DNA from: a virus
Virus record (IMG/VR): IMGVR_UViG_3300031851_000147
Location: 1-26,385 of that record
Direction: 5' to 3' (one strand)
Length of the DNA: 26,385 nt
Of the stretch, positions 4,689-24,435 are shown one piece after another. The notes beneath the pieces are model-generated. The model saw only the letters and a list, made by a program, of their open reading frames with translations. It was not told the DNA's origin and ran no database searches. Made by a program: the position numbers and the translations under genes. Position 1 is the stretch's first letter; each line of letters starts with the position of its first letter.

Positions 4689-5272
4689 TATTCTTTAAAA
4701 GCTACTGTTACCCAAACATCAGTTATAGAAAATAATGGAAAGCCTGAAAGTGTTAATTCCCATTGCCTTAATCCTGTTGCTGTATAGTAACTTGCACCAC
4801 TTCTATTTATAGGATAGAAAGTGGCACTATTTGTATCTTGCCTACCTACATAGACATGAACTTGTGACCAGCCTGCATTACCTGTTGGTGTACCTGCTGT
4901 GTCATATACCTGAAAAATATCAGTATTATTATTTGTATGATATAGACCCCAAGTTGGAGCTGTACTATATAAATCGCAAGTTGTATCAGTTGTTGAGCCA
5001 AGAGCAGTTCCAGCAATATTCGGAGAATATCCTGTAAAAGTTTGTCCAAATTTTGTAATTTGCCCTATCGTTATTGTGTTTTGCCATTTATAAATAGACT
5101 TACCATAAAAGTTAGACATAGATATTGCACCTGAAGATACATCTGCTAAATCCCTAAGACTAGTTTCATTCATATTAGATGTGGCTGTAGCACTTCTTTT
5201 AAGTTCTAAGTTAATTGATCTCCCATAAGTAGTACCACCAATAGACATAGCTCCACTAGTTGCAAGAGTCAT
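4688..5272 (-). CDS. second tail-fibre-type protein (GGTTYGRS motif)
   Basis: The first ~60 residues contain SIGGTTYGRSINLELKRSAT, then LRDLADVSSGAISMSNFYGK, a signature seen in many marine phage fibre or receptor-binding proteins. It looks like an attachment module with a repeated 'G-Ixx-SxFYGKS' ending. The rest (residues ~60-194) is beta-rich, full of T, N, G and Y, as in receptor-binding tips. The gene overlaps the end of the large J-like gene by 17 nt. It may form the distal fibre or a decoration of the tail tip. Host-range determination is inferred. Confidence 0.72.
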   Translation of the reverse strand: MTLATSGAMSIGGTTYGRSINLELKRSATATSNMNETSLRDLADVSSGAISMSNFYGKSIYKWQNTITIGQITKFGQTFTGYSPNIAGTALGSTTDTTCDLYSTAPTWGLYHTNNNTDIFQVYDTAGTPTGNAGWSQVHVYVGRQDTNSATFYPINRSGASYYTATGLRQWELTLSGFPLFSITDVWVTVAFKE

Positions 5273-8200
5273 TGTCTAACCTCTGCTTTAATTCATCTAT
5301 TTGCTTTTGTTGGTCTTTAACTTGTTGTGAAAGTTCTTTAACAGCTTCTACTAATAAAGCTGTAGCATTTCCATAATTAACACCATATTGGTCAACATCC
5401 TCAGCATAAGTAACTAGTTCAGGAACTACCTCATCTACTTCTTGTGCTATAAAACCGATTTGTTTTGTTTTATCAGTATCATCAATCTTGTTATAGTAAA
5501 CACCTCTTAAGGCTTCTACTTTTGTTAAAGGTTTATCAATAGTGCTTATGTTTTCTTTTATTCTTCTATCAGAATATGCAGTAATGTTACCTGTTGCGTA
5601 AATTGCACCATGGACATAAATCTCATAACTAGCAGAGGTAGTAGATGCGCCAAATGCAGTACAAGAGTTACTTGTATTAAAGTATTGAGTCCAACCAGCC
5701 CCACCTTGTTGATAGAATCCACCATTACCAGCACTATCCCACATACAGGCCATGTTGCCACCGTCATCAAACATTATTCCATCATACCCACCCTTAGAAC
5801 CACTTGTTTTCCAAGTAGCGTAGCTAGTAACAGTGTTTGCTGATAAACGTGCTGAATTAGAATTTCCATAAAATGAATGAGATGTCACACCAAGTATATT
5901 ATTTAAGTTATTTAGATGGAAATCAATAAAGGTTGCAGCTCTATCTCCTGACATAACTAATGCACCTGTTGCATCACCATTATGTCCCCACATACCCCAC
6001 TGCCCATTGCCTATTTGTGATAAGCCTGTCCATTGATTACCTAAAGCAGTAGTAACACTAGTTGCACCTCCCCTATACCCTAAAGACATTCCGAAATTAT
6101 CACCTGCTGCTACTGAAGAATTATGCTCTCTAAAGAAAAGCCTACCTGAACCCTCACCGCTTGTATCTGTATTTCCTTCCATAGAAGCCCAACAGCTTTG
6201 AGCATTTGCTCCGTTTGATGGTATTCCAAAAGTTAAACATGCATTGTCATAAGCAATATTAACATTCCCATTTTCACCATTTACTACAAGTAAATCTTGA
6301 GAGGTTGCCATAGCAGAACTGCCACCATGTCTGCCTACAACTAAGTCTGCACCTGAAGAGTTGTTAGAGTTAGAATCTAGGTTTATATATAAAGCACCAT
6401 AAGAGTTAATTCTTAAATCATCAGCAGCAGTAAAGTTTCTATCTCTTGCAAAAATACTATGGTTAGTACTTGTATCTCCATAAAAAGTTATTCCACCTGA
6501 TCTAGGTATATGTATTCTTTTATCTGCCGTAGGCCCTGTACTTAGTAAATCTATAGTTCCTGAAGAAATAGTTCCTATGTTGGTTAGGTTGCGAGAGGTA
6601 TCTATCACTGTAGTTCCATTTACTTGATAAGATTTTAAATTAAGCCTTCCTGCTCCATTAAGGTTTCCGACATTTGTAGTTCCAATTTCAAAATATACAA
6701 GAATTGGTGCTTTTATATACAAAGAGTTTCCATCATGGTCTAAAGCAACAGTATTTCTTAGTTTATATTTACCTGCTGTTAAATTAATACTAGAAGATGC
6801 TGTAATAGCACCTGAAGATATAGTTCCATTAACGTCTAATCCTGCACTTGGAATAGTTGTATCAGTTTCGCCGTAGCCAACTCTTATTCCACTAGCTACT
6901 GTTAATAAACCATTAGTGGTAAGTGCCATTGCTCCTTGAGCATTTGTGTGAGTGGAATCTCCCCACCAAAAACCACGGTCATTGTCGTTGTTCATTTGGA
7001 ACGTCATGGCGTAGTCGTTGTTTAGACCACCAAATGTATAACCAGTCTGCATACCTATTCCATAAGTATTATCTGACCAAACGCCCAACTTAACTCTTGC
7101 TTGGTTTGTGCTTGTTCTTATTCCTGTACTAGTTATAGTTCCTGAAGAAGGTATACCCCAGTTATCTGCTGTTATTACATTACCTCTAAAGTGAATTGTG
7201 TCACCTGAAGCACCACCATAATATTGATTAGTAGCATAATTATAAAAATTAGGAACACTTGTTTGAATGTAAAATTCTCCACTAGAGAAGGCTGTTCTAC
7301 CATTTGTATCGCTATAGAAATAGCCATCATTACCATCACCTACTCTTAATCGTGTTCCAGTAATAAAGCCTGTTGAAGATATTCCCCCTGAAGAAATAGT
7401 TCCTATATTGGTTAGGTTTCTTGAGGAGTCTATTGCTGTTGTGTTTGCAATTCTAAGACCTCCATTCATAATGTTTACACCATAACCAACTGTTCCACCA
7501 TCTCCTACCTGAAATACATCTGTTAAAGAAGATGCATTTGTAGGCTTGTTTTGAAATCTAATAAATCCAGACGCACCACCGCCACCGCGATAGAATGTCA
7601 TATTTGCAACTTCTACACCATTTCGTCCTGATACCTTAGATACTGCTACATTAGATAAGTCTTGACGATTGTTATCTAACCTTAAATCATTTACACCATT
7701 TTGATTGCTAAATAAATCAATTAAATTTGCTCCTGTAGATATTCCAGTTGCAGAGATAGTTCCTATATTGGTTAGGTTTCTTCCACTTGTAATAATTTCA
7801 GTACCACCTATACCAATATTTCCATTTACATCTAATTTTTGTGTTGGCGTATTATCTCCCACCCCTACCTTTCCACCACCAAAAGCTAGAATAACATTAT
7901 TTGATGTATACCAGTTTAAAGCAGCACTTGCACCGCTTGAATCCATAATTAGATAACCTGAATCATCTGTACCTGCTTTGATATTAGGGTTTCCTGATAC
8001 TCTATTTACAGTAAGTGTTACACCTGTGCCTGTATTATTAACTGTTACTGTACCTGAGTTGCTTATTGATGGTGCTGTAATAGCACCTGAAGAGATAGTT
8101 CCTGCAAAGGTGGCGTTTTCTGAACTATCAATAGTAAGAGCGGTTGTATTACCAACTCCTAACTGTAATGTGCCATTATAATTATTATAGATTTTTGCAG

Positions 8201-11200
8201 CATCAGAGGTATCTTGAAATATCCTAAGACCACTTGAATCCGTTGCTGCATTTTTTATTACAAAAACACCACTCTCTAAAGTAGCACCACCTGAACCGCC
8301 AATCGTAAGTCTTGCAGTTTCATTTGTTCCTAAAACCAAACTCCTGGCAGATGAATTATGATACAAGTGCATTGCATTTCCATCTAAAGCAATAGCACCC
8401 TGATAACCATTTCCATCAACCTCTAGCTGTCCATTAGCAGAAGAATCCATACTAATGTTTGTGCCATCTCCTGCATGAAGATTGCCACTGCTAGTAATAG
8501 ACCCTGAGTTAATAGTTCCATTAACATCTATACCGCTATTATTAACAGTAAGTCTTCTAGTGCCACTCCATACAACCTGCAAGTTACCAGCGGCATTTGT
8601 TAAGTTATCAGGAGATTCAAAGATCTTAATATTTCCACCAGTCCACTCTATACCCTCATTAACTCCTGGGTCATTAAAGGCCAATTGGTTTACACCTGAT
8701 ATCGCAGTATTATTTAGAGTTAAAGCACCTGTTATGCTAAGTGGATGTGATAGGTTAAAAGTATTGTTAGCTGTAGTCCAAGTCAAAGAAGCATCATTAC
8801 CTGCACTTACAGCATCTTGTATTGTAAATCCTGCTCCATTTGCATTAGCAGAAGTATCACCAGTTCCATAGTTAAGGGTTATGTTCTTATCTTTGACATC
8901 AAGATTTGTAGTATCAATTGTTGTTGTAGTTCCTTGTACGTCTAAATTTCCTTGAATAACTACATTGTTAGAGAATGTTTTATTACCAGCAAAAGTAGAA
9001 CCTAATGCAAGAGTAAATAAAGCATCACCTGAAGCAAAATTTGCCCCTCCTGTTAAGCCACTGTTTGATGCAGTTGTTATTTGAACTCTAGTGATATCAC
9101 CTGCTGGTGCTACTGTTGACCCACTACCATCTCCAACATAAAAACCATCACCACTAGGGTCTGTTATAGAAACAACTCTTGGTGCTGTAGAGCTAACATT
9201 ATTATTTGTTGTGTCATAACTTGTATCTGTTGTTGATACTGTTGCTTTAATTCTATGAGTTGTGCCTGTACTAATTCCAGTTAATGTTAATCCTGTAAAT
9301 GCTAAAATGGTTCTACCATCCGAATCTACGCAGCCAAGATTTAAAGATGTGGTTGTTGTGGCAATAATTATGACACCACCCTGACCACCGATAAACAATT
9401 GTTCAGTTTCAGTATTTATTTTATATTCATCAGAAGCAGGAGTTGTTTTTGGATTTACTCTATCATTAACTCTTGTAAAGGTGTCTGTAACAACAGTGCT
9501 GTAATTTGCACCGCCATCACTTGAATGTTGTATTGTTAAAGTAAAGTTTTCAGGCACTTCCGCCTCTGATTCATCTATAGCTGTATTAGTAGAACTATCA
9601 TCACTATTACCGCCAAAGTTTGCATCAATACTTACTGAAACATTTACATCCGTATTTTCTGTTACTGTAATTTCTTCGTATTCTGTATCTGCATCAAATG
9701 TGTTTGATACTGTAGAAACCTTTGTTCCTGTTGTTAAAGATATCTGAGATAAAGCTGAATCACTAAAACCAGTTTGTGAATCAAAATATACTGTTCCATC
9801 TGTTAATTTTAAGACTAAGTTTTTAGCAATAACCTTACCTGCTTTATCTACAGAGAAACTTGCATTTGCTGGTGCTTCATTACCTGACCAAAATCTATAG
9901 TCACCAGTTCCAGCCATTTTTGCAATCTCACCTGAACCTGCAACACCTGCTGTAAAACTTTTTGTTGTTTGTACTTCACCAGTATTAAGTGCTTTAAAAG
10001 GTGCTGATGCAAAAGATGTGTTACCTAAATAAATACCATCCCCATCAACAGTAAATACATCACTACCTGAACCTATTTGTATTTTAGAATCGGCTGCTGT
10101 ATTGGTAAGGGATGTTGAACCTAAAGTAAATCCACCAACTTCACCTGATGTAGCTGATATAACACCTGCTGTAGATACAGTAAAAGCACCTGATCCTATG
10201 TTGAGACTACCTGCATCTATATCCCCCAAATCACTATTTATTGCTGACAAGTCATCAACAACAATTTTGTCTGCACCAATAGTTCCTGAAGTTATATTAT
10301 CTGCATCTAAATTAGTAACTGTAATAACTGAAGCATCTATAGTTCCTGCTGTAAGTTTGTTTGCTGTTAAGGAATTTATTTTTGCATCAGTAACATTATT
10401 ATTTAATATTTTAGGAGTAGTAATAGCATCATCCTTAATATCAGGAGTTCCTGCTGGAGCATCACCTATAGTAAAAGTTCCTGTTGTTGGAAATCTAGCT
10501 GGGTTTGATTCTGTGCCTAAAGTATTTAAAGAAGTAACACTAGCAACATAAGAGCCTGTCGGCACAAAGTTTAAATCACAATTCTCTACATCTACTATTC
10601 TATTTATTACTTGATTGCCTGAACTATCCACAACATTAACTCTGTATTGATAATCAGGAAAGTCTGTTGGTTCATTCCAAGATAAGAATGGTCTACCTGT
10701 TGAACTAGAATCAGTATCAGTAAATGATAATCCTGTTGGAGCTTTGACTGCATAAGCAGAAGGTAGGTTAGCTAGTTCTTCTAACGGCTCTTCAGGTGGA
10801 GTTTCCCATGTATATACATCAAAGTATTCTATTAAGCTAACAGAAACCAAACCATTGGACTGTAATTCTAACGCTTCTACTCTACAGGTTTGTACTGTAT
10901 CAAAAGTACCTACATAGCTTAGCGTCACAATATCACCAACATTTAGCTTATACATCTCAGGAGTTCCTAAAAATTGTATAGTCATTTGTTTTCTACTTCT
11001 TACAAGTATTGCTTTAGCCATGTTATAGGCTATATATGGGTCAGTTACATAAGGAAATTCTGCTTTTATTTCTAATATCTCATCACCATCATCTGAATAA
11101 TATTCAGGACTTGCATCATGTAAAACTGTAGCTGTATCTAATTCGTATTTTTTATTAGCATTAAAAAATTCAACAATAACTTTATTTGCTTTTTTGTCTT

Positions 11201-12575
11201 TATCTCCATAATCAACTGATATACCAGCATCAGAAATAATATGATCGTCAGTAATATTAAATGTAGCTGAACCTGTATCTTCTATAGATAACTCATATTT
11301 ACCATCTATATAAAGAAAGATACCTCGCATGTTTGCAAGAAGTTCTTTTGCATTATCCATGACATTTTTATTGCTATCTAAATAACCATTACAATGAAAT
11401 CTTTTTACTTTAACTAATGATGTTCCTGCCTGTGATGAGTATGTAGAACCTAGCGTATCATTAATATATACAATGTATTCGTTGTTTTGGTCGTAAAATC
11501 CATTTCTTTGAACATCTTTAATTTCTTTACCATCTACAATAAGGGTATTGCTTCCATCACGAATATCTATCACTTCTCCAACTTTATTTTGCCACCAAGC
11601 ACTATCAGGGTCAGTTCCACCAATGGTTATAAAGTCATCCCCAACATTACCTGACCACGTAAGAGATTGTGTTGAGCCATTAAAATAAGGCTGGTCAACC
11701 TTTGTATCACAAACATTAGCAGCAGCAGTAAATGTGCTCATGTTTATTTGTGATTGTGTTAATCCTTTACCATACTCATTATTGGTTATGTAATCTAAAA
11801 AGGTTAAGGCTGGATTATCTGAATACTTATAGGTAGATACGTCTCCAAATATTTGATTTGTGTCTCTTGGGTCAAATACTTTTTTACCTCTAACTTGAAC
11901 TGTTAGTTGAGGCACTCCTGACCATATACCCTCTTTATCATAACCATAGTGAGCTGCTATATAAGTAACACCATTTAGTTTATGTGCTGTAGTCCAGTTA
12001 GGCATGGAAGCAACAAGCATAGGATCTGCTGTTTGTGTTGCAGCTCCATGATGTAGATTCATAACATATCTATATCTTGATGTTGGACTTGTACCAAATT
12101 GACCAGCACCAGCATCTATACCAGTGCCATTTTGTGAAACTGTATTTAATGAGCCTGAGCCTGAAGATATCTTATCTGAACCAATATATCCACCATCTCT
12201 AAATCTTGCTGAATCAGTTAAAGGATTACCATCAAGCTCAATAGTTCTTCCGATGATCTCATCACACTCACCAACTGATAAGGCATAGACTACATATAAA
12301 TCTCTTGAGTCATTAGCAGAAACATCCATATAAACAACTTGAGCTCCAACACGTCTAGTTCCGTATATAACAGGTAGTTTGCCTCCAGCGGCAGTTTTAT
12401 TAGCTAAAATATCCTGCCCTTTGGCCATCATCTGTTTGGCTTGCATAAAGCCTTTAACGCCAACTACTGCCGTAACTGCTTGAAATACGTAGCTTATTTT
12501 TTTTAACGTACTAGCTGCATCCCATGCTATTTTTGCATCTTTAAAAAAAGTAGCAACTGCTGTCCAAAAACTCAT
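5256..12575 (-). CDS. J: 2439-residue J-like tail-tip and fibre protein with S74 chaperone end
   Basis: Residues ~1-600 look like lambda J and related tail-hub proteins (KLPVIYGTRRVGAQ near the start, then the phage-tail_3-type region with NVGDIVTLSYVG). A fibronectin-III-like domain spans ~605-705. The middle is a long beta-rich fibre with recurring NLTNIGTISSG and LDVNGTISSG units. The end is an S74 intramolecular chaperone: SDRRIKENI starting at S2335, then KQIGFIAQEVDEVVPE and a coiled coil. In S74 proteins the chain is self-cut just before that serine and the last ~105 residues are released after trimer folding. The gene begins on the stop of the L-position gene (TAATG). No K or I homologue (NlpC/P60) lies between them, unlike lambda. 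Confidence 0.9.
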   Translation of the reverse strand: MSFWTAVATFFKDAKIAWDAASTLKKISYVFQAVTAVVGVKGFMQAKQMMAKGQDILANKTAAGGKLPVIYGTRRVGAQVVYMDVSANDSRDLYVVYALSVGECDEIIGRTIELDGNPLTDSARFRDGGYIGSDKISSGSGSLNTVSQNGTGIDAGAGQFGTSPTSRYRYVMNLHHGAATQTADPMLVASMPNWTTAHKLNGVTYIAAHYGYDKEGIWSGVPQLTVQVRGKKVFDPRDTNQIFGDVSTYKYSDNPALTFLDYITNNEYGKGLTQSQINMSTFTAAANVCDTKVDQPYFNGSTQSLTWSGNVGDDFITIGGTDPDSAWWQNKVGEVIDIRDGSNTLIVDGKEIKDVQRNGFYDQNNEYIVYINDTLGSTYSSQAGTSLVKVKRFHCNGYLDSNKNVMDNAKELLANMRGIFLYIDGKYELSIEDTGSATFNITDDHIISDAGISVDYGDKDKKANKVIVEFFNANKKYELDTATVLHDASPEYYSDDGDEILEIKAEFPYVTDPYIAYNMAKAILVRSRKQMTIQFLGTPEMYKLNVGDIVTLSYVGTFDTVQTCRVEALELQSNGLVSVSLIEYFDVYTWETPPEEPLEELANLPSAYAVKAPTGLSFTDTDSSSTGRPFLSWNEPTDFPDYQYRVNVVDSSGNQVINRIVDVENCDLNFVPTGSYVASVTSLNTLGTESNPARFPTTGTFTIGDAPAGTPDIKDDAITTPKILNNNVTDAKINSLTANKLTAGTIDASVITVTNLDADNITSGTIGADKIVVDDLSAINSDLGDIDAGSLNIGSGAFTVSTAGVISATSGEVGGFTLGSTSLTNTAADSKIQIGSGSDVFTVDGDGIYLGNTSFASAPFKALNTGEVQTTKSFTAGVAGSGEIAKMAGTGDYRFWSGNEAPANASFSVDKAGKVIAKNLVLKLTDGTVYFDSQTGFSDSALSQISLTTGTKVSTVSNTFDADTEYEEITVTENTDVNVSVSIDANFGGNSDDSSTNTAIDESEAEVPENFTLTIQHSSDGGANYSTVVTDTFTRVNDRVNPKTTPASDEYKINTETEQLFIGGQGGVIIIATTTTSLNLGCVDSDGRTILAFTGLTLTGISTGTTHRIKATVSTTDTSYDTTNNNVSSTAPRVVSITDPSGDGFYVGDGSGSTVAPAGDITRVQITTASNSGLTGGANFASGDALFTLALGSTFAGNKTFSNNVVIQGNLDVQGTTTTIDTTNLDVKDKNITLNYGTGDTSANANGAGFTIQDAVSAGNDASLTWTTANNTFNLSHPLSITGALTLNNTAISGVNQLAFNDPGVNEGIEWTGGNIKIFESPDNLTNAAGNLQVVWSGTRRLTVNNSGIDVNGTINSGSITSSGNLHAGDGTNISMDSSANGQLEVDGNGYQGAIALDGNAMHLYHNSSARSLVLGTNETARLTIGGSGGATLESGVFVIKNAATDSSGLRIFQDTSDAAKIYNNYNGTLQLGVGNTTALTIDSSENATFAGTISSGAITAPSISNSGTVTVNNTGTGVTLTVNRVSGNPNIKAGTDDSGYLIMDSSGASAALNWYTSNNVILAFGGGKVGVGDNTPTQKLDVNGNIGIGGTEIITSGRNLTNIGTISATGISTGANLIDLFSNQNGVNDLRLDNNRQDLSNVAVSKVSGRNGVEVANMTFYRGGGGASGFIRFQNKPTNASSLTDVFQVGDGGTVGYGVNIMNGGLRIANTTAIDSSRNLTNIGTISSGGISSTGFITGTRLRVGDGNDGYFYSDTNGRTAFSSGEFYIQTSVPNFYNYATNQYYGGASGDTIHFRGNVITADNWGIPSSGTITSTGIRTSTNQARVKLGVWSDNTYGIGMQTGYTFGGLNNDYAMTFQMNNDNDRGFWWGDSTHTNAQGAMALTTNGLLTVASGIRVGYGETDTTIPSAGLDVNGTISSGAITASSSINLTAGKYKLRNTVALDHDGNSLYIKAPILVYFEIGTTNVGNLNGAGRLNLKSYQVNGTTVIDTSRNLTNIGTISSGTIDLLSTGPTADKRIHIPRSGGITFYGDTSTNHSIFARDRNFTAADDLRINSYGALYINLDSNSNNSSGADLVVGRHGGSSAMATSQDLLVVNGENGNVNIAYDNACLTFGIPSNGANAQSCWASMEGNTDTSGEGSGRLFFREHNSSVAAGDNFGMSLGYRGGATSVTTALGNQWTGLSQIGNGQWGMWGHNGDATGALVMSGDRAATFIDFHLNNLNNILGVTSHSFYGNSNSARLSANTVTSYATWKTSGSKGGYDGIMFDDGGNMACMWDSAGNGGFYQQGGAGWTQYFNTSNSCTAFGASTTSASYEIYVHGAIYATGNITAYSDRRIKENISTIDKPLTKVEALRGVYYNKIDDTDKTKQIGFIAQEVDEVVPELVTYAEDVDQYGVNYGNATALLVEAVKELSQQVKDQQKQIDELKQRLDNDSCN
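6559..7778 (-). repeat. dispersed near-identical DNA repeats inside the fibre gene
   Basis: Copies at 6559-6590 and 7387-7418 are identical over 32 nt except for one base, and a third at ~7750-7778 matches over about 29 nt. They encode the NLTNIGTIS unit. Related weaker copies encode GTISSGAI near 6797-6835, 8073-8105 and 8494-8520. These are domain-boundary repeats in the fibre shaft. They could allow loss or gain of fibre segments by recombination. Confidence 0.7.
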
Positions 12576-22249: not shown

Positions 22250-22323
22250 AAATTAAAAATATATCTATACCCGATTATAACGAGTATTTATAATGATTTG
22301 TTACATTATATGAAATATTTATT
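22250..22323 (-). promoter_or_regulatory. gap with a promoter candidate before the head genes
   Basis: The minus strand has TATAAT (22274-22279) preceded by ACTCGT. The -35 position at 17-nt spacing reads AACAAA, a poor match. The -10 is 24 nt before the head gene start, giving a leader of roughly 17 nt with no Shine-Dalgarno. The ACTnGnTATAAT stretch partly matches the repeated promoter, but GTATAC is missing. A structural-gene promoter here is plausible yet weakly supported. No terminator hairpin is seen. Confidence 0.38.
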
Positions 22324-22776
22324 TTAGCCTATTTTAATATAATTTATGTTGCTTTTTTCAAATAATTCTTGTGATGCTTTAAAACTTTCAGTCCATTTGT
22401 CTTTTGGCTTATTTGAAGAATAAGTAACAACTTCTTTTATACCTACTTGTATAATACCTTTAGCACATTCATGACATACGTCTAAGCCATATACAAATAA
22501 AGTTGATCCTTCTAAAGATATGCCATTTAAAGTAGCATGATATATACAATTCATTTCTGCATGAATAATATAATTCTTTTTTAATTTTGAGTTTTTATAT
22601 ATTATTTCAGAATCATCAAAACCTTTAGGAAAACCATTATACCCCTGGGATAATACCTGCCCACGATTTCCAATAGCTACGGCTCCAACCTGAACAGATG
22701 GGTCTTTAGACCAGCTAGCAAACTTTTTAGCTAGCGTTAAATATTTTAAATTCCAGGAGTCTGAATAACTAGACAT
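22324..22776 (-). CDS. dCMP deaminase family protein
   Basis: This 150-residue protein shows the zinc-dependent cytidine/deoxycytidylate deaminase fold: VQVGAVAIGNRGQVLSQGYN, then IHAEMNCIYHA with H72 and catalytic E74, and VCHECAKGIIQVGIKEVV with C101 and C104. The usual PCxxC has Val in place of Pro here. The enzyme converts dCMP to dUMP, normally to feed thymidylate synthesis. Its start overlaps the end of the ThyA-family gene by 8 nt, so both are made together. Beside a ThyA-family enzyme that may prefer dCMP, it could instead act on the modified nucleotide or balance dCMP. Activity is not proven by sequence. Confidence 0.88.
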   Translation of the reverse strand: MSSYSDSWNLKYLTLAKKFASWSKDPSVQVGAVAIGNRGQVLSQGYNGFPKGFDDSEIIYKNSKLKKNYIIHAEMNCIYHATLNGISLEGSTLFVYGLDVCHECAKGIIQVGIKEVVTYSSNKPKDKWTESFKASQELFEKSNINYIKIG

Positions 22777-23563
22777 TTACTTCAAGCTTTTTAGCAGCAT
22801 TATGTTTATAACTTGCAATAATAAAATCAGCCGGGTATAAATTGTCAATACCTGCTTCATAATGTAATTTTACGGTAGGTGGATTAAATATTTCTAATTC
22901 ATGAGCTGTTTTTGCAAATTGTATATGATTATTATAAATATGCGCATCGCCTAAATTAAATATTAGTTTGTGAGGAGTTGTATCTAATTCATTAGACAAA
23001 ACTAACATTAATAATGAGTGGAACAATATATCCGAAGGAAGTCCCACCATTACATCAGACGAGCGCATGTTAACCAATAAACTTAAATGATTATTGTGAA
23101 TAAATAATTGAAAACCGTGAAAGCAGGGCAATAAAGCCATTTTATCTGCATCAACTGGATTCCAAGCTGAAACATACAATCTCCTTGACTCTGGATTAAC
23201 CTTAGCTTCTTGAATAACGTTTTTTAATTGGTCAATCTGTAAGCCAGAATAATTACGCCATTGAGACCCGTATATAGGACCTAAATTGCCATCTTCTTCA
23301 GCCCAAGCATCCCAGTAATTACAGCCCAGTGTTTTAAAGTCATTTACATTTGTATGACCACGTAAAAAAGCAATAAGCTCACCAATTACACCTTTATAAA
23401 ATATTCTACGATGTGTTAATAATGGAAACCCAGCTTTTAAATTTAATTCAAGATTTGCGCCAAATATACCTAAAGTGCCTACACCTGTTCTTTCTTGATT
23501 TCTTTTAACACCTTCGGTTAATACTTTATTAACTAAAGCAAAATATTTTTTTTCATTTTCCAT
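22769..23563 (-). CDS. ThyA-family nucleotide methylase, dCMP-type candidate
   Basis: At 264 residues it aligns end to end with E. coli ThyA. Conserved features are R25 (ERTGVG), E62 (GELIAFL), W84 and W87 (YWDAWA), GPIYGSQWR, SRR (R127, R128), the nucleophile C147 in LLPC, RSSD (R167, D170) and GDAHIYNNH (H208, Y210). The position of E. coli Asn177, which selects dUMP over dCMP, is D178 (GLPSDIL) here. An Asp there occurs in T4 dCMP hydroxymethylase and turns thymidylate synthase into a dCMP methylase in published mutants. PCH is also changed to PCF, and Q of QRS to Met. Likely a dCMP methylase or hydroxymethylase using methylene-tetrahydrofolate. Plain thymidylate synthase remains the alternative. 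Confidence 0.87.
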   Translation of the reverse strand: MENEKKYFALVNKVLTEGVKRNQERTGVGTLGIFGANLELNLKAGFPLLTHRRIFYKGVIGELIAFLRGHTNVNDFKTLGCNYWDAWAEEDGNLGPIYGSQWRNYSGLQIDQLKNVIQEAKVNPESRRLYVSAWNPVDADKMALLPCFHGFQLFIHNNHLSLLVNMRSSDVMVGLPSDILFHSLLMLVLSNELDTTPHKLIFNLGDAHIYNNHIQFAKTAHELEIFNPPTVKLHYEAGIDNLYPADFIIASYKHNAAKKLEVNV

Positions 23564-23819
23564 TTTGTTTTTTTAAATAAGCGCCGTAAAAACTTGCATA
23601 GTTAATTAAATCTAAAACTGAATCATAACTAGATTCAAAATTAGGTTTTTTGTCATCAAAAGCTACTGACTCTAAACGTTTTACTTTTGTTTGAATCATT
23701 TGCAAATATGAATAATGACCATAAGGAAAGTATTCTTGTTTAGCTTCTGAGTCAACAGAGTTATAGTCTTCTTCTTTTTGTTTTTGTAAAGCTGCGGCTT
23801 CGCTTAATACTGAATGCAT
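23553..23819 (-). CDS. Nmad1/DUF1599-like small protein
   Basis: This 88-residue protein is mostly helical: ALQKQKEEDYN, EYFPYGHYSYLQMIQTKVKR, then SSYDSVLDLINYASFYGAYL. The arrangement 'K..DY ... yG..SY..mI..K..Rl ... DS..DLinYa' resembles the nucleotide-modification-associated domain 1 family (Nmad1, DUF1599). That family was linked to modified-base genes by gene context, with biochemistry unknown. I recall the family from its motif and cannot verify it here. It has AAGGAG at 5-nt spacing, and its stop overlaps the ThyA-family start by 11 nt. It is probably a partner in the same nucleotide cassette. Confidence 0.66.
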   Translation of the reverse strand: MHSVLSEAAALQKQKEEDYNSVDSEAKQEYFPYGHYSYLQMIQTKVKRLESVAFDDKKPNFESSYDSVLDLINYASFYGAYLKKQNGK

Positions 23820-23821
23820 AG

Positions 23822-24223
23822 TTACTCCTTATTTAAAAAATCTAATTTACCAACATTATCAAAATGTTGTGGGGCTTGCCAGCCTTTAGGTTTTACAAGA
23901 TCAGGTAATCCTAATGGATTAGGCCTGGTATCTTTAACCCCTATTTTTTTCTGCATATTTGCATGATGTACTCGCTTCCACGCTTTTTTAATATTTACAT
24001 CAAATGCATCTAGTGTTCCTAATGCAATAACAATAATATCTATAAAAGCATCTACTACTTCATCAGCTTCATCATTTTCAATTGCTGTAATTAATTCGTT
24101 TAATTCTTCTTGAATAAACTTAGCTCGAAATTCAAGATAATGTAATTTTTCATTATCTGAAGCATTAGCAATAAACCGGTATATTTTGTAATACCGGTTT
24201 AAGTTTTTTATGTCGCCGAGCAT
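23822..24223 (-). CDS. MazG-like NTP pyrophosphohydrolase
   Basis: This 133-residue helical protein contains the EExxE motif (E39, E40, E43 in FIQEELNELITAI) followed by ExxD (E55, D58 in DEVVDAFIDIIVIALGTL). These are the metal-binding motifs of all-alpha NTP pyrophosphohydrolases (MazG, dUTPase, dCTPase groups). These enzymes cut NTPs or dNTPs to the monophosphate. In this operon a dCTPase activity would supply dCMP for the ThyA-family enzyme and lower unmodified dCTP, as T4 gp56 does, but substrate cannot be read from sequence. The C-terminal ~50 residues (NPLGLPDLVKPKGW) are an added tail. The start lacks a Shine-Dalgarno. Confidence 0.75.
   Translation of the reverse strand: MLGDIKNLNRYYKIYRFIANASDNEKLHYLEFRAKFIQEELNELITAIENDEADEVVDAFIDIIVIALGTLDAFDVNIKKAWKRVHHANMQKKIGVKDTRPNPLGLPDLVKPKGWQAPQHFDNVGKLDFLNKE
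24173..24200 (-). repeat. perfect 10-bp hairpin in the start of the MazG-like gene
   Basis: AAACCGGTAT (24173-24182) and ATACCGGTTT (24191-24200) are perfect inverted repeats with an 8-nt loop. The stem starts about 20 nt inside the coding sequence and spans codons ~9-17 of the MazG-like gene, whose start has no Shine-Dalgarno. It could slow initiation or ribosome entry, protect processed mRNA, or bind a protein. The two CCGG cores stand out in this A/T-rich DNA. Confidence 0.7.
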
Positions 24224-24435
24224 TTTTTATTAAAATCCGCAATAACTTTTTTATTTTCTTTAACCATAAAATTGTAAGCGTCTTGCTTGTTATTAAAACG
24301 AAAATGTTTAGGTGCGTTATGTTTAAAAGGGTTCATGCCTTTAACAACAAAATGTGTATAAGAGGCCGATGGTCCTCCAAGCACATACCAAGTATAAGCA
24401 GGGTTTTTTGCATATGGATTATTTTGTATATTCAT
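24208..24435 (-). CDS. 75-residue hypothetical protein, first gene of the nucleotide cassette
   Basis: The protein starts MNIQNNPYAKNPAYTWYVLG and contains ASYTHFVVKGMNPFKHN and HFRFNNKQDAYNFMVKENKK, a compact basic protein rich in aromatics with a likely helix at the end. I do not recognise it. It has AAGGAG at 7-nt spacing, 38 nt after the repeated promoter's -10. Its stop lies within the next gene (16-nt overlap). Placement suggests an early expressed partner of the nucleotide enzymes or a host-directed small protein. Confidence 0.7.
   Translation of the reverse strand: MNIQNNPYAKNPAYTWYVLGGPSASYTHFVVKGMNPFKHNAPKHFRFNNKQDAYNFMVKENKKVIADFNKKCSAT

Follow-up and report, generated by a model that had tools for sequence, protein, structure and literature searches.

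A ThyA-family gene with aspartate at the pyrimidine-selecting position in a marine phage: a predicted dCMP 5-methylase within an Xp12-like gene cassette

A ThyA-family gene of a marine phage raises the question of whether its product is a thymidylate synthase (TS) acting on dUMP or an enzyme acting on dCMP, and if the latter, whether the product is methylated or hydroxymethylated. The gene lies on the minus strand at positions 22769–23563 of a 26,385 bp stretch of viral DNA (IMG/VR record IMGVR_UViG_3300031851_000147; the whole stretch is referred to here as the window), and its open reading frame encodes a 264-residue protein, here called ThyA-Asp, which matches PF00303 with an E-value of 9.9e-76. 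An AlphaFold model (mean pLDDT 94.5) superimposes on E. coli TS with a TM score of 0.95 and an rmsd of 1.4 Å over 264 columns, and the best structural matches of the model are all TS. The fold and the catalytic residues of TS (Cys146, Tyr94, Glu58, Asp169 and Arg166 in E. coli numbering) are present, and ThyA-Asp also has in common with E. coli ThyA and phage TS the residues Trp80, Trp83 and Leu143 and the C-terminal tail. However, the TS hallmark pair of Asn177 and His147 is absent, with Asp178 and Phe148 in their places, and there are further departures from E. coli ThyA at Gln165 (Met), Lys48 (Arg) and Phe176 (Ser).

The position of the aspartate corresponds to the residue involved in pyrimidine selection, Asn177 in E. 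coli TS and Asp179 in T4 gp42. A sequence-only reading had assigned Asp178 (in GLPS-D-IL; GAT codon at 23030–23032, minus strand) to this position, and the MAFFT and HMMER alignments both place it in that column, as supported by a structure-based alignment with E. coli TS. The other residue assignments of that reading also hold: the Phe after the catalytic Cys is Phe148, aligned with E. coli His147 (codons for Cys147 and Phe148 at 23120–23125), and the Met before R-S is Met166, aligned with Gln165 and also Met in T4 gp42 (23066–23068). Both tryptophans of the YWDAWA motif are kept, as W84 and W87 (E. coli W80 and W83; the Trp87 codon is at 23303–23305, and T4 gp42 has Val85 there), and the nearly complete set of TS residues it described is evident in Cys147, Tyr98, Glu62, Arg167, Asp170, Trp84, Trp87 and Leu144 (23132–23134; E. 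coli Leu143, T4 gp42 Asp145), all codons being on the minus strand.

The aspartate is fixed among close relatives. In a first scan of viral contigs it is present in 18 of 18 orthologues with 83–100% identity, and a later scan added further orthologues at 83–87% and three at 59% identity, all of them with Asp. The codon is GAT in 28/28 orthologues, in spite of nucleotide divergence of up to 21%, and Asp178 is thus more than chance or a sequencing error. In the wider phage clade holding ThyA-Asp, whose members were retrieved with patterns that omit position 177 (sampling is not blind, since Asp members were used to build the profile for the first set), Asp occurs in 43 of 44 tree rows. Among 80 background phage TS fetched with a TS alignment, 79 have Asn177 and one has Asp, and all 80 have His147.

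Trees were built with columns 48, 147, 165, 176 and 177 excluded, and even with these diagnostic columns left out ThyA-Asp groups with Asp177 enzymes and apart from the Asn177 TS. These are quick trees without bootstrap, and support is given as SH-aLRT, with a value for the Asp clade of 99 in the first tree and of 89 in a second tree that has more outgroups. There are two more Asp lineages, that of T4 gp42, whose very long branch lies apart from the ThyA-Asp clade, and that of the Xp12-type enzymes; long branches make the placing of both unsure. ThyA-Asp does not group with the enzyme of the Bradleyvirinae, the subfamily that holds the 5-methylcytosine (5mC) phage Xp12 (PMC11946847), and represents a separate Asp177 lineage.

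Other members of the ThyA-Asp clade include proteins of Edwardsiella phage KF-1, pelagiphage Kolga EXVC016S and podovirus MW202744, which are usually annotated as thymidylate synthase. They share with ThyA-Asp the motifs FYKGVxGEL and GCNYWDAW together with Asp177, Arg48, Ser176 (Phe in Kolga) and Leu143, and in many members there are MazG and Nmad1-like neighbours as described below. Most, however, have His147 where the lineage of the window has Phe, and the window lineage differs in having its cassette between the terminase and head genes. Only one bacterial relative was found, in a Candidatus Komeilibacteria MAG contig. There are two exceptions to the partition by residue 177: a lone Asp177 protein, which also has Met165, lies within the Asn177 TS clade (L180), and an Asn177 protein lies within the Asp177 clade (L092). 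These are natural test cases for the residue-177 rule.

The gene is one of four in a cassette spanning 22324–24223 (minus strand), and the order along that strand is terminase large subunit, MazG-like gene, a gene for an 88-residue protein, ThyA-Asp, deaminase, head-tail joining protein and portal. Close relatives have an identical cassette order wherever the contig reaches, and the ThyA gene overlaps the genes on both sides of it. The MazG-like gene (23822–24223, minus strand) encodes a 133-residue predicted all-alpha NTP pyrophosphohydrolase with a PF01503 match (E-value 3.3e-11; 43.9 bits against a cut-off of 21.3) and the EExxE...ExxD motif in the form EELNE...EVVD. Downstream of ThyA-Asp is a 150-residue protein of the dCMP-deaminase family (22324–22776, minus strand; PF00383, 3.2e-19), the start of whose gene shares 8 bases with the end of the ThyA gene. 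It is possibly a (methyl-)dCMP/dCTP deaminase, and its nearest solved structure is 7fh4. A terminator-like hairpin, a consensus match only, is located just past the deaminase gene (22267–22287, minus strand).

The 88-residue protein (23553–23819, minus strand) is assigned as Nmad1/DUF1599-like from tblastn, alignment and a sub-cut-off match to PF07659, which scores 14.9 bits against a cut-off of 25; it aligns with a Bacteroides phage protein that passes with 38.3 bits. Its structural model is all-helical, and with VIA-align the best Z score is 9.2, to AF_0060, with scores of ~5–6 to PRA-PH, MazG and DCTPP1. This is suggestive of an all-alpha NTP pyrophosphohydrolase fold, with the caveat that a small helical bundle makes such scores less telling. 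A Foldseek search with the model gave no match below an E-value of 0.001, and no PDB sequence was matched by a profile made from the Nmad1-like alignment.

The nearest cultured phages by terminase are Roseobacter phages CRP-821 and CRP-811 (52%), in which the terminase is followed directly by the head-tail gene. Because there is no cassette at that place in these two genomes, an insertion or a loss at the terminase/head-tail junction seems likely. At the upstream edge of the cassette is a small open reading frame at about 24246–24435 (minus strand), between the terminase and MazG genes, and at the start of the MazG gene (24172–24201) there is a near-perfect inverted repeat (TAAACCGGTATATTTTGTAATACCGGTTTA) that is terminator-like on the plus strand. 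Elsewhere in the window (5256–12575, minus strand) an open reading frame of 2439 residues combines a phage-tail domain with a Peptidase_S74 chaperone domain at its C terminus; tail-tip and fibre functions appear to be united in this single protein. We found nothing in the literature specific to this marine cassette.

The cassette genes are associated with Asp177. Using neighbour HMMs built from the window and cultured-phage sequences, and thus including Asp-group members, a MazG-like gene was found within 1 kb of ThyA at 30 of 38 Asp177 loci versus 3 of 78 Asn177 loci, an Nmad1-like gene at 20/38 versus 0/78, and a deaminase at 22/38 versus 1/78. Fisher p values range from 1e-12 to 1e-17, although these overstate independence because the loci are related. 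With these HMMs, NTP-pyrophosphohydrolase neighbours are absent from eight of the 38 Asp177 loci; one of the eight, MW202744 (L107), has an annotated MazG-like gene further off. At the two exceptional loci, the Asn177 member of the Asp clade has none of the three cassette genes in 10.8 kb, and the Asp177 protein in the TS clade has none within 1 kb. In the MetaGPA study, positions 177 and 147 were those most strongly tied to cytosine-modified phage contigs (PMC8670742), and ThyA-Asp departs from TS at both. The same study found PF01503, PF00383 and PF14437 together with TS domains, a combination that was often specific to the modified contigs (PMC8670742), and all three are found in the window cassette. 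Work on an engineered TS cited in that paper reports that Asn177Asp switches TS to dCMP, yielding 5mdCMP (cited in PMC8670742).

A tblastn search with the 88-residue protein identified 42 phage records, mostly Mesyanzhinovviridae/Bradleyvirinae, with 41–46% identity to PaMx74, Mallos and A1432. It is the counterpart of the C-terminal half of a fused Bradleyvirinae nucleotide pyrophosphohydrolase, and the N-terminal half of the fusion is homologous to the window MazG protein (43% identity in PaMx74), with a VKPxGWQAPxH motif common to both. In the Bradleyvirinae loci examined (Mallos, PaMx74, A1432, AXL1, Elanor and YB23) the genes downstream of the fused one are an Asp177 'thymidylate synthase' and a deaminase, and in most of these loci DHFR comes next. 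The order NTP pyrophosphohydrolase, Asp177 ThyA and deaminase is therefore common to both groups, and because the MazG and Nmad1-like parts are fused in the Bradleyvirinae, the window has the Xp12-type set in the same order with its first gene split in two. Xp12 itself (MT664984) is outside the phage collection, and a tblastn search with the AXL1 enzyme did not recover it; the comparison was therefore made with AXL1, another member of its genus (Bosavirus).

There are also clear differences. The ThyA proteins belong to different Asp177 lineages (29% identity between the window and AXL1), with Asn143, Phe83 and Pro147 in the Bradleyvirinae and Leu143, Trp83 and Phe147 in the window, and the Bradleyvirinae genomes are about 55–64 kb, whereas the window phage is about 33 kb and neither DHFR nor a family A DNA polymerase was found in it. 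Because of the low identity and separate branches, the analogy with the Xp12 cassette rests on Asp177 and gene order and not on orthology, and although ThyA-Asp may work like the Xp12 enzyme, with dCMP methylation as the expected chemistry, orthology is not implied by the tree. In Xp12, 5-methyl-dCTP is a substrate of the deaminase, and a contact between Trp128 of that enzyme and the 5-methyl group has been proposed (PMC12088426); Trp is residue 128 in both AXL1 and the window (22393–22395, minus strand) and falls in the same alignment column, with 30% identity between the two deaminases. However, the T4 and PBCV-1 deaminases are also reported to have an aromatic residue at this site, and Trp128 is thus compatible with action on a methylated substrate but not diagnostic.

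Two observations concern the other phages. The annotated TS of AXL1 (Stenotrophomonas phage; L193:5279-6220) and those of the other Bradleyvirinae loci (L190-L192, L195 and L196) all have Asp177. AXL1 DNA is cut by only five of 31 restriction enzymes (26/31 resisted), an Xp12-like pattern (PMC9206674), and its authors describe the genetic mechanism of this resistance as unknown (PMC9206674); the Asp177 enzyme offers a testable genetic basis for it. The annotated TS of Roseobacter phage RDJL Phi 1 (L109:4980-5867) has Asp177, Pro147 and Asn143 like the Xp12 group, and is followed by a deaminase and DHFR, with a MazG-like domain upstream in a gene annotated as Cof hydrolase. From these features RDJL Phi 1 is a candidate 5mC phage.

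We strongly infer that the substrate of ThyA-Asp is dCMP rather than dUMP, from Asp178, the clade and the genomic context, because the substrate-choosing residue and the neighbouring genes match those of Xp12-like phages. A likely dCMP-acting enzyme was what the sequence-only reading had proposed, and the alignment, the Asp clade and a neighbourhood typical of cytosine-modifying phages all point the same way. The alternative is that ThyA-Asp is still a dUMP-acting TS with a tolerant active site, and that the cassette simply takes dCTP to dTMP by way of dCMP and dUMP. The remaining catalytic residues and the fold are indeed TS-like, and MazG, deaminase and TS together make up a conventional route to dTMP. 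But Asp177 is reported, in the engineered-TS work noted above, to shift the preference of TS to dCMP, the Asp is invariant in the family, and the cassette genes track Asp177 loci and hardly ever Asn177 loci, where a plain dTMP route predicts the reverse. That the sole Asn177 member of the Asp clade lacks the cassette genes over 10.8 kb also argues against it, and we regard a dUMP-acting enzyme as very improbable. A related explanation is that dCMP is methylated only as a step towards thymidylate, the deaminase converting 5-methyl-dCMP to dTMP, with ordinary cytosine kept in the DNA. Overlap of the deaminase and ThyA genes, the AT-rich phage DNA (34% GC), the aromatic Trp128 at the proposed methyl contact, and the lack of a second ThyA or a ThyX in five related contigs of 29–34 kb all fit this, and Xp12 makes dTTP by deaminating 5-methyl-dCTP (PMC12088426). 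In Xp12, however, the deamination route coexists with full replacement of cytosine by 5mC, comparable MetaGPA contexts came from cytosine-modified DNA, and a dCTP-lowering MazG fits better if dC is kept out of the DNA. We consider a role confined to thymidylate synthesis improbable.

If dCMP is the substrate, ThyA-Asp could also be a dCMP hydroxymethylase, with Asp178 selecting dCMP and water closing the reaction to give 5-hydroxymethyl-dCMP, and hydroxymethylcytosine in the DNA. T4 gp42 and that of Serratia phage PS2 belong to the same ThyA superfamily, with Asp at 177 and Met at 165 in common with ThyA-Asp, and in PS2 an Nmad1-like gene adjoins a true gp42 gene. However, the signature of T4 gp42 is an Asp or Glu three residues before the catalytic Cys and a Ser or Thr two before the active-site Tyr (PMC6400193), with Asp145 being required for hydroxylation (PMC6400193); gp42 also lacks a C-terminal tail and has Val in place of Trp83 (PMC6400193). 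None of these gp42 residues (Asp145, Ser94 and Val85) has an equivalent in ThyA-Asp, which has Leu144 three before the Cys, Pro96 two before Tyr98, Trp87 in the Trp83 column and a tail as long as that of TS (...KKLEVNV aligned with ...IKAPVAI). Trp87 and the tail are features that exclude water in TS, neither a glucosyltransferase nor a carbamoyltransferase was noticed in the window or the relatives examined, and the best structural matches of ThyA-Asp are TS. Hydroxymethylation thus seems unlikely. Because the gp42 signature is absent and the hydride-transfer features of TS (the Trp80, Trp83 and Leu143 equivalents and the C-terminal tail) are kept, the residues lean towards 5-methyl-dCMP as the product rather than 5-hydroxymethyl-dCMP, and ThyA-Asp resembles a TS scaffold into which the Asp has been introduced, the combination for which the cited engineering work reports 5mdCMP. 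We note that such TS-like residues are not required for methylation, since the Bradleyvirinae, which include a proven 5mC phage, have Asn143 and Phe83.

The Nmad1-like gene of Serratia phage PS2, a T4-like phage, is directly upstream of the gp42 dCMP hydroxymethylase gene (L197:2794-3300). The idea that the Nmad1-like protein is a simple replacement of the T4 dCTPase gp56 is rejected, as PS2 keeps gp56 besides it.

Our preferred interpretation, to which we give a probability of roughly two in three, is that the product of the gene is a dCMP 5-methylase and that the cassette around it is an Xp12-like set for cytosine methylation. In the pathway that this predicts, the MazG-like enzyme with its Nmad1-like partner would convert dCTP to dCMP. 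Cys147 of ThyA-Asp would then attack C6, with Asp178 selecting cytosine and protonating N3, and a carbon from methylene-tetrahydrofolate would be reduced by hydride transfer to give 5-methyl-dCMP, a methyl product being predicted from the residues described above. Host kinases would convert this to 5-methyl-dCTP, and the host replisome would put it in phage DNA in place of some or all of the cytosine. By analogy with Xp12, the deaminase may turn part of the dCMP and/or 5-methyl-dCMP(/dCTP) into dUMP/dTMP(/dTTP) for the AT-rich genome.

The reliance on host functions in this pathway follows from the gene content. DHFR, cytidylate kinase (PF02224) and family A DNA polymerase (PF00476) were sought in the window and five related contigs of 28.7–33.7 kb, these two Pfam families being the only kinase and polymerase families searched, and none of the three was found. 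Because no kinase or family A polymerase was found, host kinases and a host polymerase are invoked; likewise, because no DHFR was found, although a methylase of this type consumes tetrahydrofolate, recycling of tetrahydrofolate would be the host's. Nor was a second ThyA or a ThyX found in the window and the same contigs, although these records may be incomplete. For the phage, the probable advantage is DNA that is protected from host restriction.

The Asp177 rule and the co-occurrence of these domains in cytosine-modified phages are already published (MetaGPA 2021, PMC8670742). What is new is the placing of a marine lineage in a third Asp177 clade apart from the gp42 and Xp12 enzymes, the split form of the Xp12-type cassette genes, their presence in ~33 kb genomes in which family A polymerase, DHFR and cytidylate kinase were not detected, and the link of Nmad1-like genes across phage lineages, with a two-part NTP pyrophosphohydrolase (MazG plus Nmad1-like) tied to Asp177 enzymes both in the window clade and in the Bradleyvirinae. 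In dozens of phages the Asp177 ThyA genes are annotated as thymidylate synthase, an annotation that hides DNA cytosine chemistry. We tentatively suggest, as a possibility held with less than even confidence, that the third Asp177 lineage makes 5-methyl-dCMP in a large, unrecognised and mainly marine group of phages, that in the window lineage this one product is the source of 5mC and also, by way of the deaminase whose gene overlaps, of thymine, and that the host replisome builds the 5mC genome of a ~33 kb phage in which a family A DNA polymerase was not detected. Should 5mC be confirmed in such a phage without its own polymerase, a short cassette would be sufficient to turn the host replisome into a factory for 5mC-DNA, and this could explain the restriction-resistant DNA in marine viromes.
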